From positions 1 through 57,379 of the forward strand of contig JAOMAZ010000006.1 of the NCBI GenBank assembly GCA_028344335.1: a stretch of DNA of 57,379 bases, given 5' to 3'. A model generated the notes under the pieces. That model searched no databases, was not told the DNA's origin, and saw only the letters and a list, made by a program, of their open reading frames with translations. Below are positions 40,997 to 44,356 of the stretch, in pieces. This DNA is from Deltaproteobacteria bacterium. GTDB lineage: Archaea; Thermoplasmatota; Poseidoniia; Poseidoniales; Poseidoniaceae. Numbering within the stretch: position 1 is the stretch's first letter; each line of letters starts with the position of its first letter. Both the position numbers and the translations under genes were made by a program.

Positions 40997-41950
40997 ATGA
41001 GTGATTCATATGTTGCCTTTGTTAGGCATGGCGAGAAATTATTGTTACTTTGCAGGTCAGATTCAGATCCTGACTTCGCAGACCATTGGGATGGGGTTTA
41101 TGGTGTTGGGATAGATGAAGAGGAAGTCATCGGCAGAGTAGTCGAATGTACTGGTATTCCAGCAGAAAGTCTGACTGCAGTTAGGTACGCTCCTGCTAGA
41201 GGAGTATCCATGGGAAATAGGTTGACTGACATGACTCCTTGGTTAGTAGTTTCAGATACTGATGATGTTATTCCTGGCGGTCTTTATGTTGAGTACCAAT
41301 GGATCGATCCTGGAGATATTGTCATCGACGACAGAGAACACAGCACTACACGCAACCTCTGTTATACAGAAGACCGTGAAGGTGGACACGTTGACCGCCT
41401 TCTTCGCGATATGTATGGCGATGTTTCTTCTTACCTTTATGTCGTTAAAACTGGAATTGGATCAGAACAGAGAGTAGCTGTTGAGATGCAAGCGCGCTTG
41501 AGTGGTTCAGGTTCACTAGCAATGATTCAAAATGAGATTTTTGCAATTCTCCACCCCCCTACTATGCGTGGATATGTGATGGTTGAGTCAAGTGCTCGAC
41601 ACCACGTTGAGCGTCTAATTGGTCGCACCGGAGGTAGAGACCGCAAGACAAGAGGAGTCATGCTCTCCACTCCAATCAAGAACGCCAAGGCGGTACTTGG
41701 CGGACAAAACTCTGCTGAAGCACCATTGTTAGATATTCTACCTTACTTGGAACCAAAGGCAGTGACTTCTGGAATCGAAGTCGGCTGTATCGTCGAGATC
41801 ATCACTGGCGCCTTCAAGGGAGAGAAAGCCCGTGTTGTTAGTGTCGCAGAATCCAAGGAAGAAGTGTCCATGGAATTATATGAAGCCGACATCCCAATGA
41901 CCCTAAACATGCGTGGAGACCACGTTAGAGTCATTGAGAGGGTGGAGTGA
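40997..41950 (+). CDS. spt5: Transcription elongation factor Spt5 with N-terminal Nudix-like domain
   Basis: A 317-residue protein, about twice the usual archaeal Spt5. Residues about 145-250 form the NGN domain (SSYLYVVKTGIGSEQRVAVE ... PPTMRGYVMVESSARHHVER), and 255-317 the KOW domain (GCIVEIITGAFKGEKARVVS ... MRGDHVRVIERV). The added N-terminus has the strand order of a Nudix fold: YVAFVRHGEKLLLLCRSD, WDGVYGVG, VIGRVVECTGIP, and YQWIDPGDI. The Nudix box is degenerate: only one of the REUxEE acidic residues survives. So it is probably a binding rather than catalytic domain. Second in the secE operon. Confidence 0.88.
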   Translation: MSDSYVAFVRHGEKLLLLCRSDSDPDFADHWDGVYGVGIDEEEVIGRVVECTGIPAESLTAVRYAPARGVSMGNRLTDMTPWLVVSDTDDVIPGGLYVEYQWIDPGDIVIDDREHSTTRNLCYTEDREGGHVDRLLRDMYGDVSSYLYVVKTGIGSEQRVAVEMQARLSGSGSLAMIQNEIFAILHPPTMRGYVMVESSARHHVERLIGRTGGRDRKTRGVMLSTPIKNAKAVLGGQNSAEAPLLDILPYLEPKAVTSGIEVGCIVEIITGAFKGEKARVVSVAESKEEVSMELYEADIPMTLNMRGDHVRVIERVE

Positions 41951-41975
41951 AAACCCAATTATGCCGCGCGGCGCG

Positions 41976-41983
41976 ATTAAATA
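41976..41983 (+). promoter_or_regulatory. Candidate TATA box for the rpl11-rpl1-rpl10-rpl12 genes
   Basis: ATTAAATA follows a GC-rich GCGCGGCGCG and lies 53 nt before the rpl11 ATG at 42037. It would permit a separate ribosomal-protein transcript in addition to readthrough from secE-spt5. Confidence 0.4.
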
Positions 41984-42036
41984 GGGTAGTCAAGTCGGCC
42001 GAATGCCCACGTCCGTAGGCAAAGGAAGTGAATGAC

Positions 42037-42315
42037 ATGCCACAACCCTGGACTTCAAAACTCATCATCAAGGCTCTTGGTGTTGAGAAGTGCAATGGAA
42101 GCATGGATGCAGCTACCGAAAACCTCCCACTGGAGAAGGCTATCGAGGTAGCCAAACAAAAGGCGGGAGAAGGACACCTAACAGGTGCTGACCTCAAGGC
42201 TCAGACCAGAGAGGTCATCGGAACTTGTGTTTCGATGCGTGTTAAGGTGGATGGACTGTGGCCAAAAGAAGCATTGGAGGTAATTTCCAACGGAGATTGG
42301 AATGACCGCTTCTGA
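42037..42315 (+). CDS. rpl11: Ribosomal protein uL11, C-terminal domain only
   Basis: From ATG 42037 there are 92 residues, compared with about 160 for archaeal uL11. They align end to end with the rRNA-binding C-terminal domain: PWTSKLIIKALGVEKCNG, LEKAIEVAKQKAG, LKAQTREVIGTCVSMRVKVD and PKEALEVI. The N-terminal domain with PPLGPxLGPLGVN is absent. Only 86 nt separate it from the intact end of spt5, so there is no room for it. A GTG at 42028 would add three residues. It lies in the normal place between spt5 and rpl1. The domain kept is the one that folds the GTPase-centre rRNA; the missing one contacts elongation factors. Confidence 0.88.
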   Translation: MPQPWTSKLIIKALGVEKCNGSMDAATENLPLEKAIEVAKQKAGEGHLTGADLKAQTREVIGTCVSMRVKVDGLWPKEALEVISNGDWNDRF

Positions 42316-42335
42316 AGCCATCACGGACCGCGGGA

Positions 42336-42355
42336 GAGGTGGTGAAAGCCACTTC
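42336..42355 (+). promoter_or_regulatory. rpl1 leader hairpin, candidate L1 autoregulatory site
   Basis: GAGGTGG and CCACTTC form a 7-bp stem (one G-U pair) around the loop TGAAAG. It is flanked by GGGAG just upstream (42332-42336) and by GTGAAATA at 42369-42376 immediately before the rpl1 ATG. The GGGAG ... GTGAAATA pair resembles the L1-binding region of 23S rRNA as I recall it, and L1 is known to repress its own mRNA. AGGGGTGA also serves as Shine-Dalgarno, so part of the match may be coincidental. Confidence 0.4.
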
Positions 42356-42378
42356 GCCGACCGCAGGGGTGAAATATC

Positions 42379-43023
42379 ATGCAAACAAAAATTAGTCAAG
42401 CAATAAAAGACGCTGTTGAAGCGGCACCTAAGCGTTCTTTCGTCGAGAGTATCGACATGGCATTCACAATTCGTGATGTCGACTTGAAGAACCCAGCCAA
42501 CCGTATTCAAGAGGAAGTTCGTCTTCCTTCAGGTCGAGGCAAACAAATCTCAATCGCTATGTTTGCATCTGCTGATGCAGCAGTCAAAGCCAAAGCAGCC
42601 GGAATCGTGGTCATAGATCCATCTAGCATCGAAGAATTGGGAAGCGACAAGACCAAGGCCAAGAAAATGGCAAAGAAGTATGATTACTTTCTTTCAGAAG
42701 TTCCTCACATGGGACTCATCGGACGCTACCTCGGTGTAGTTTTAGGACCTCGTGGTAAGATGCCACGACCAGTCCCTCCAAATTTAGATCCAGCAATGAT
42801 TGCAAAGGGTCTTGAGAGCACCGTTATGGTTCGTAGCCGTGATAGAATAACCTTCCACACTTCAATTGGCACTCTCAGCCAGACTGAAGATGAGTTGATT
42901 GAGAACGCTATGACCGTCTGGACTCGTGTTATCACTAAGTTAGAACGTGGTGCAGGAAACATTCGTTCGCTCCATATCAAGACCACAATGGGTCCATCGC
43001 ACAAGGTGGAGGTGATTTTCTGA
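42379..43023 (+). CDS. rpl1: Ribosomal protein uL1
   Basis: A 214-residue protein of the large-subunit L1 stalk that also regulates its operon in many Archaea. FVESIDMAFTIRDVDLKNPA, RLPSGRGKQISIAMFAS, the second-domain YFLSEVPHMGLIGRYLGVVLGP, RGKMPRPVPPNLDP and the end LHIKTTMGPSHKVEV are family hallmarks. It has the length typical for Archaea. Its stop codon overlaps the presumed AUU start of rpl10, and a strong SD for that gene lies inside its last codons. Confidence 0.97.
   Translation: MQTKISQAIKDAVEAAPKRSFVESIDMAFTIRDVDLKNPANRIQEEVRLPSGRGKQISIAMFASADAAVKAKAAGIVVIDPSSIEELGSDKTKAKKMAKKYDYFLSEVPHMGLIGRYLGVVLGPRGKMPRPVPPNLDPAMIAKGLESTVMVRSRDRITFHTSIGTLSQTEDELIENAMTVWTRVITKLERGAGNIRSLHIKTTMGPSHKVEVIF
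43008..43015 (+). promoter_or_regulatory. Strong Shine-Dalgarno deciding an AUU start for rpl10
   Basis: GGAGGTGA inside the last codons of rpl1, 7 nt before ATT at 43023. It is a near-perfect match to the anti-SD and has no other gene to serve. No ATG, GTG or TTG is in frame before ATG 43134, so it supports initiation at ATT (or CTG at 43020). Confidence 0.65.
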
Positions 43024-44036
43024 TTCCAAAGGTATCACCATGGAAGAAAGATACTGTTGCAGACCTGAAGGAACTAATTCAGGGTGGCAGCACACTAGGA
43101 GTCATCGATATTCACGGAGTTCCTGCTGGAGCAATGTTGGGAATGCGTAAGGATCTTCGCCAGACCATGGGTATTCAAGTCGCAAAGAAGCGCTTGATGC
43201 GTCGCGCTTGGACAGAGTCTGGATTTATTGAAGAAGACCTTGAAGCTCTCTTCGATGGCGCAGTCCAACCTGCAATCATCAGTGCGGCTGATATGAACAG
43301 TTTTGATTTATTCAGGGAATTAAAGAAGACCGAAGCCGGCCGTGCTGCTAAACCAGGAGACTTTGCACCTCACGACATTGTCGTCGAGAAGCAGGATACA
43401 GGCATGCCTCCAGGACCGATAGTTGGAGAATTGAACTCTGTCGGAATACCTGCAAAAATCATGGGCGGTAGCGTCCACATCCAAAAGAAATTGACTGTTC
43501 TAAAAGAAGGCGAAGAATTCGAGGGAGACCTTGGAATGCTTCTTTCTAAGATTGGTATTAACCCAATTGTTACTGGCCTACGTTTATGCGGTACCCTTGA
43601 AGATGGTACAGTCTTCAATCCAAAGGTTTTGGATATCGATATCGAACAGTTCGAGAGCGATCTCATCGGAACAATGGCTGGTGCTTTCAACCTCGCCTGC
43701 AACATCAGGTGGTTCACAACTCAAACTACACCAACACTAATCTCCAAGGCGAGCAGCGAGGCACTAAGCGTCGCTCTCGAAGCAGGAATTGCAACCAGCA
43801 AGACCCTGCCCTTGTTGATATCCCGTGCAAACGCCCATGCCTTGGGCGTTGCTGGACTACTCGACTCCGATGCTATGGATGACGACCTGCGCTCATTATT
43901 GGGTGCAGCTGTCGAAGCAGCAAGCGCTGCTGCGGCCGTCGCCGAGACAACTGAGGAAGCCCCTGCCGAGGCTGACGAAGAAGAGGAGGAAGAGGAGGAT
44001 GCCGAGTTCGAAGGACTTGGTAACCTATTCGGCTAA
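43023..44036 (+). CDS. rpl10: Ribosomal protein uL10 (P0), apparent AUU start
   Basis: Read from ATT 43023, the protein has 337 residues and begins (M)PKVSPWKKDTVADLKELI, which aligns position by position with archaeal uL10 N-termini (MAHVAxWKK). IDIHGVPAGAMLGMRKDLRQ is the conserved rRNA-binding strand. The first canonical codon in frame, ATG 43134, would delete 37 conserved residues. VGIPAKIMGG, the central insertion, an Ala-rich helix and the acidic C-terminus ending EFEGLGNLFG are typical. uL10 anchors P1 dimers at the stalk base. The start overlaps the rpl1 stop by one base. Confidence 0.93.
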   Translation: MPKVSPWKKDTVADLKELIQGGSTLGVIDIHGVPAGAMLGMRKDLRQTMGIQVAKKRLMRRAWTESGFIEEDLEALFDGAVQPAIISAADMNSFDLFRELKKTEAGRAAKPGDFAPHDIVVEKQDTGMPPGPIVGELNSVGIPAKIMGGSVHIQKKLTVLKEGEEFEGDLGMLLSKIGINPIVTGLRLCGTLEDGTVFNPKVLDIDIEQFESDLIGTMAGAFNLACNIRWFTTQTTPTLISKASSEALSVALEAGIATSKTLPLLISRANAHALGVAGLLDSDAMDDDLRSLLGAAVEAASAAAAVAETTEEAPAEADEEEEEEEDAEFEGLGNLFG

Positions 44037-44062: not shown

Positions 44063-44356
44063 ATGGAGTACGTATATGCTGCAATGTTGTTGCACTCTGC
44101 TGAGAAAAACATCGATGAGGACGCTGTTAGTGCCATACTTGGCGCTGCTGGTGTCGAAGCTGACAATGGCCGTGTAAAGGCACTTGTCGCTTCGCTTGAT
44201 GGCGTTGACATCGCTGATGCGATGGCAACTGCTGTTGCTGCCCCTGCCGCTGCTGCCCCCGCTGCCGCTGCTTCTGCCCCAGTTGAGGCAGAAGAAGAGG
44301 AAGAGGAAGAGGACGCTGGCGCAGGCTTCGAGGGACTCGGATCCCTGTTTGGCTGA
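44063..44356 (+). CDS. rpl12: Ribosomal protein P1 (archaeal L12)
   Basis: A 97-residue acidic stalk protein. The dimerisation domain [20 protein letters not shown] is followed by a long Ala-rich hinge and an acidic tail ending FEGLGSLFG, the elongation-factor-binding peptide shared with the uL10 end. AGGTGA precedes ATG 44063. It closes the stalk operon. Confidence 0.97.

Follow-up and report, generated by a model that had tools for sequence, protein, structure and literature searches.

Ribosomal protein uL11 without its N-terminal domain across the archaeal order Poseidoniales

Described forms of uL11

To our knowledge, ribosomal protein uL11 is universal, and its N-terminal domain (NTD) is regarded as a constant part of cellular ribosomes. 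Elongation, release and stress factors make contact with the NTD, which also supplies one half of the site where thiopeptides bind. Laboratory uL11-null mutants such as the bacterial L11-minus strains have ribosomes that work without the NTD, and the isolated L11 C-terminal fragment (L11-C76) binds the 58-nt RNA of the GTPase-associated centre (GAC). In the systems described elsewhere, uL11 binds rRNA through its C-terminal domain (CTD) and reaches translation factors through its NTD; in yeast, GPLG mutants of the NTD show poly-Phe synthesis of 9-32%, meaning that the NTD matters for elongation, and yeast without uL11 (rpl12a rpl12b) is slow-growing but alive (PMC9122527). Given the defects of the GPLG mutants, it is not obvious that the NTD could be lost free of cost.

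In comparing the uL11 of Poseidoniales (Marine Group II, MGII) to the two-domain protein (PF03946 plus PF00298; NF002232), the same rRNA-binding CTD, the same spt5-uL11-uL1-uL10 position and a single copy per genome are seen, but the whole NTD is missing, including the factor-contacting GPPLGP/GPLG helix, and the changes Gly-to-Arg at residue 68 and Gly-to-Cys at residue 19 are fixed. Judged by its sequence, the protein is homologous to uL11 yet fails the two-domain definition of the family. L11-C76 is alike in showing that a lone CTD is enough to bind and stabilise H42-H44, but it is an experimental construct, whereas the CTD-only uL11 of Poseidoniales is a natural full gene product. The likeness to uL11-null mutants (yeast rpl12a rpl12b, PMC9122527) is that ribosomes work without the NTD, but those mutants are impaired and have lost the whole protein, whereas the Poseidoniales form is natural, keeps the CTD and has its NTD loss fixed in two families.

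The uL11 locus in the window

The window, which is the whole stretch of DNA that was analysed (57,379 nt), carries the following features around uL11.

40997..41950, + strand: Spt5, with NGN and KOW domains in its C-terminal half (PF03439, PF00467)
41951..42036, + strand: spt5-uL11 intergenic stretch of 86 nt, non-coding, promoter-like sequence and leader in place of NTD codons, conserved across Poseidoniales
41976..41983, + strand: TATA-like box ATTAAATA within gcgATTAAATAggg
42024..42031, + strand: Shine-Dalgarno-like motif GGAAGTGA before the ATG at 42037
42037..42315, + strand: uL11, C-terminal rRNA-binding domain alone (PF00298, NF002232, hhalign)
42379..43023, + strand: uL1 (PF00687, E 8.1e-46)
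43020..44036, + strand: uL10 (P0) (PF17777, E 4.1e-15)
44063..44356, + strand: P1 stalk protein (aP1/L12) (PF00428, E 2.5e-12)

The uL11 ORF (42037-42315, plus strand) encodes 92 aa from an ATG, or 95 aa if translation began at the in-frame GTG at 42028. The RNA-binding CTD, PF00298, is matched over profile positions 2-69 of 69 (E 3.6e-11; 43.7 bits against a cut-off of 21.4), and the Pfam search returned no match in this protein to PF03946, the NTD with its GPPLGP motif. Against NF002232, the profile of the archaeal full-length uL11, it aligns only to positions 71-157 of 164 (E 1e-16) and fails the full-length equivalog test, scoring 61.4 bits where the cut-off is 162. Solved archaeal uL11 chains are aligned from residue 68-71 onward, a 72-residue uL11 chain (6by1_CI) being among the structure-chain matches, and hhalign pairs the protein with residues 69-156 of the uL11 of family f3, a sister-order family that we take to be MGIII, at 40% identity. 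The N-terminus, MPQPWTS, falls exactly at the NTD/CTD linker. An AlphaFold model of the 92-mer rests on a shallow alignment and has a mean pLDDT of 49, which is too poor to use and gives no structural confirmation.

As the spt5 stop ends at 41950, 86 nt remain before the uL11 ATG, where about 200 nt would be required for the approximately 66-70 absent NTD codons, and no NTD motif is present in any frame of this stretch. The sequence-only reading of the locus, a uL11 without its N-terminal domain 86 nt after Spt5 in an otherwise normal stalk operon, is borne out by the match to PF00298 alone, by the NF002232 alignment limited to 71-157 and by the order spt5-uL11-uL1-uL10-P1, in which Pfam shows nothing unusual in uL1, uL10 or P1. 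uL1 adjoins uL11 in most Poseidoniales loci.

Distribution in Poseidoniales and Thermoplasmatota

The survey of Poseidoniales covered 194 genomes from 22 genera and two families, 34 of the genomes being at least 90% complete. PF00298 was present in 169 of the 194 genomes and in 22/22 genera; PF03946 was found in no genome (0/194), in none of those at least 90% complete (0/34) and in no genus (0/22). Both domains were detected in 14/14 control genomes. Roughly 13% of the Poseidoniales genomes gave no uL11 match at all, presumably through contig gaps, which is unproven. The protein is 91-101 residues long in Poseidoniales and begins at the interdomain linker, with N-termini of the form MPxPWTS or MSDNWTS in most of family f1 and MSxRNETPH or MSDNWT[SA] in family f2.

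In a phylum-wide search with NF002232, all 79 Poseidoniales matches were partial (E 1e-13 to 1e-21), and outside the order 195 of the 197 Thermoplasmatota genomes with a match exceeded the full-length cut-off. On re-examination, the two genomes below it (G349 and G403) still hold the NTD part of the profile. In G349, which is 72% complete, uL11 is split (C35:3012-3288) into an NTD piece (2-51) and a late CTD piece (109-160); the two are read in different frames and lack the part between them, which probably reflects a sequencing or assembly mistake. Family f3, whose order is sister to Poseidoniales within one class, has a full-length uL11 in 6/6 genomes (profile positions 2-158 or 2-159), its start directly adjoining the spt5 stop. 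The lineage comparison of uL11 lengths that the sequence-only reading had proposed is in its favour, and a full-length uL11 at the same position in close relatives, which would have refuted it, occurs in none of the Poseidoniales genomes. With this sharp boundary at the order and the full-length protein in f3, a single loss of the NTD on the Poseidoniales stem would be the simplest reading.

It had also been suggested that the missing domain is supplied elsewhere, possibly by a separate uL11-NTD ORF, and no such ORF was found in Poseidoniales by PF03946 (194 genomes) or by a clade-tuned NTD profile (36 genomes). The latter, built from 13 Thermoplasmatota NTD sequences and searched at E up to 5, returned nothing better than E 0.07 in the 36 Poseidoniales genomes and about 1e-37 in the f3 controls. 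A standalone or relocated NTD was accordingly rejected, the only candidates being isolated chance matches (E 0.07, 0.2 and 1.1) in unrelated places. A protein of the same fold without sequence similarity to the NTD cannot be excluded.

Selection on the CTD and its ribosomal partners

Purifying selection on the uL11 CTD is strong, pairwise dN/dS being 0.02-0.09 where dS was unsaturated and computable. This selection, the intact ATG, the Shine-Dalgarno-like motif and the TATA-like box identify the short uL11 as a functional gene and not a pseudogene. Numbering by the window protein, residue 68, which lies within the GT(C/A)xSMG motif of the CTD, is Arg in 51/51 Poseidoniales sequences versus Gly in 36/36 others, and residue 19 is Cys in 49/51 versus Gly in 36/36. 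Further clade-fixed changes in the CTD are Asn at 20 and Glu (or Asp) at 28.

The loops and tips of 23S rRNA H42-H44 that face the NTD are unchanged in Poseidoniales (GAC region compared across 23S loci L118-L136), which excludes the loss of the rRNA target; these loops carry what we take to be A1067 and A1095 (E. coli numbering, 58-nt fragment). U1083G is the sole Poseidoniales-specific change in H42-H44, seen in all Poseidoniales sequences against the outgroups and one f3 sequence. In place of a usually conserved G-C pair, presumably 1091-1100 in E. coli numbering, Poseidoniales share a U-A pair with one f3 (MGIII) sequence, and since f3 has a full-length uL11 this change is unrelated to the NTD loss. 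Binding of the uL11 CTD to H42-H44 is inferred from a target rRNA that is present and conserved.

In aEF-2, 17 sites are fixed in the clade, including 685, 696 and 697 near the C-terminus; they are mostly conservative, spread out and not concentrated in domain V, and clear compensation in aEF-2 was rejected on these grounds. uL10 keeps its extended, protuberant insertion domain across the order as well as its acidic C-terminus, and has clade-fixed changes at K57, W64, P84, R108 and G172; no new domain was found in Poseidoniales uL10.

The proposed GTPase-associated centre

Very probably, the Poseidoniales ancestor lost the uL11 NTD and its descendants use a CTD-only protein in a reduced GTPase-associated centre. 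The truncation, its extent, the absence of a detectable NTD elsewhere, the purifying selection and the conserved promoter-like sequence are observed directly; the presence of uL11 in the ribosome as a lone CTD and the way in which factors still bind are inferred, with neither a ribosome structure nor a proteome available for Poseidoniales. Of the two possibilities raised by the sequence-only reading, a lineage-specific reduced GTPase centre is the one supported, because the truncation is order-wide and fixed. As rRNA binding falls to the CTD and factor contact to the NTD in other systems, and as yeast remains viable without uL11, a centre made of the uL11 CTD, rRNA, uL10 and P1 is most likely, its ribosomal part being inference.

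By this mechanism, the NTD would have been lost after the split from the sister order (f3, taken as MGIII), leaving the uL11 of 91-101 residues in all examined descendants with a match, and a promoter and leader belonging to uL11 itself would now occupy the former place of the NTD codons. The CTD may still bind the H42-H44 rRNA of the centre and keep it folded; the uL10-P1 stalk, together with rRNA tips that are unchanged, would receive aEF2, aEF1A and aRF1, and no mobile NTD clamp would close on the factors. R68, C19, N20 and E28 of the CTD, the uL10 changes and possibly 23S U1083G are candidate adjustments to this state. Against this reading, only a small number of fixed differences exist in aEF-2, uL10 and rRNA, and they do not cluster where the NTD is known to make contact.

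A centre that has instead been rebuilt, with the NTD replaced by a new protein or by co-adapted uL10, aEF-2 and rRNA and with factors gated otherwise than in the ribosomes studied so far, is unlikely. In its narrower form, the space of the NTD and its factor-contacting role would be taken by a protein or extension that is either unrelated to it or too diverged to be recognised. The functional importance of the NTD elsewhere (PMC9122527), the clade-fixed positions of uL10 and the 17 sites of aEF-2 with their C-terminal members are all compatible with such a substitution, which nevertheless has no NTD detectable by sequence at lax thresholds and no new uL10 domain to rest on, and most of the aEF-2 changes are conservative and scattered along its sequence, leaving it rather improbable.

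A selective cause has also been considered, in which losing the NTD, instead of following from drift or streamlining, allowed evasion of thiopeptide-type inhibitors whose site lies between the NTD and H43-H44. Mutations in the uL11 NTD give thiostrepton resistance (PMC3347575), and with the rRNA half of the drug site unchanged, losing the protein half could suffice; however, there is no evidence that Poseidoniales meet such compounds and nothing computed separates this cause from neutral loss, so that little credence can be given to it.

The region upstream of uL11

The upstream region was compared in 51 Poseidoniales loci of both families and in 80 named GTDB loci. Of the 51 loci, 49 have a TATA-like box (TTAAATA or similar) at a distance of 47-64 nt before the uL11 ATG; of the 80 named loci, 79 have one upstream, its distance being 56-63 nt in 78. 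A GTCG leader motif is present in 51/51 loci and a Shine-Dalgarno-like motif before the ATG in 50/51. No GPPLGP-like motif occurs within 900 nt of uL11 in the 51 loci, and no NTD core motif was found in any frame anywhere in the 80 named loci. In genus g5, one or two extra small genes that encode no NTD are present between spt5 and uL11; at locus L010 (473-1397) these are two genes for small predicted membrane proteins.

A non-standard upstream start, giving a uL11 that includes a diverged NTD, could be imagined from the in-frame ORFs that extend upstream in some loci (up to 143 aa, and 610 in one). This is barely credible, as the frame is closed six codons upstream of the ATG in the window (locus L001), the extensions cannot be aligned, contain the TATA-like box and leader and lack an NTD motif, and conservation at the linker covers both the ATG and the Shine-Dalgarno-like motif. 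A hidden NTD in the long upstream frames, including the 610-aa frame of G092, was rejected, these being non-homologous and without the motif.

The genome of the window is only 57% complete, so that the absence of the NTD there would by itself prove little, but an assembly or binning error or a deletion local to one genome has next to no chance of being correct and is already refuted, as the CTD-only structure is found in 169 genomes of 22 genera, recurs in independently assembled MAGs, in named GTDB Candidatus Poseidoniales and Poseidoniaceae records and in what are, judged by their names and by titles without a MAG tag, single-cell genomes (AH-287-P07, AH-273-O19 and AG-333-I22), and has conserved promoter-like sequence in place of the NTD. 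The assembly deletion that would have undone the sequence-only reading is thereby excluded.

Implications

Poseidoniales appear to have permanently lost a ribosomal element that is regarded as common to every cell. Among the open-access papers examined, none describes a natural lineage with a CTD-only uL11 or an NTD loss in Poseidoniales/MGII, reports elsewhere not being excluded, and L11 is not mentioned in the two main MGII genome papers. As free-living and globally abundant ocean archaea, Poseidoniales are a natural experiment on the purpose of the NTD, in which it could be tested which factor contacts are dispensable, how GTPases can be recruited by the stalk and rRNA alone, and what compensates. 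The loss predicts intrinsic thiopeptide resistance, and it is inferred that genome-quality marker sets containing Ribosomal_L11_N would undercount Poseidoniales.

Neighbouring features

Spt5 of Poseidoniales is extended at its N-terminus by about 140 residues (window 40997-41440, residues 1-148) that are absent from f3 (MGIII) and the other Thermoplasmatota loci examined and have no Pfam match. Residues ~1-105 are modelled as a Nudix fold, with confidence of 72-94 for most of residues 1-100 and ~62 at 61-80; Foldseek matches are to MutT/NudI/RppH (E ~1e-5 to 1e-4), including 3grn MutT (E 1.1e-5, probability 1.00, TMt 0.62). In the alignment, the catalytic Nudix box GX5EX7REUXEEXGU is not met, the sequence being GxxDxxEEVxxRVSExTGI without the REUXEE glutamates. 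The extension is predicted from this model to be a degenerate, order-specific Nudix-fold domain that has lost its catalytic box; a move of the uL11 NTD into it was rejected, the fold being Nudix. The literature search gave no paper that connects Spt5 with Nudix in such a way.

Between uL11 and uL1, a GC-rich, hairpin-prone leader of 63 nt (42316-42378; GTGG-TGAAAG-CCAC) is possibly a uL1 autoregulatory site; Rfam gave no regulatory RNA above threshold, and the leader was without a match. At 43020-43025, the uL10 of the window has no ATG, GTG or TTG near its conserved N-terminus, and appears from inference to start at a CTG overlapping the uL1 stop (ttCTGA); its relatives have TTG, GTG, ATG or CTG at this position.
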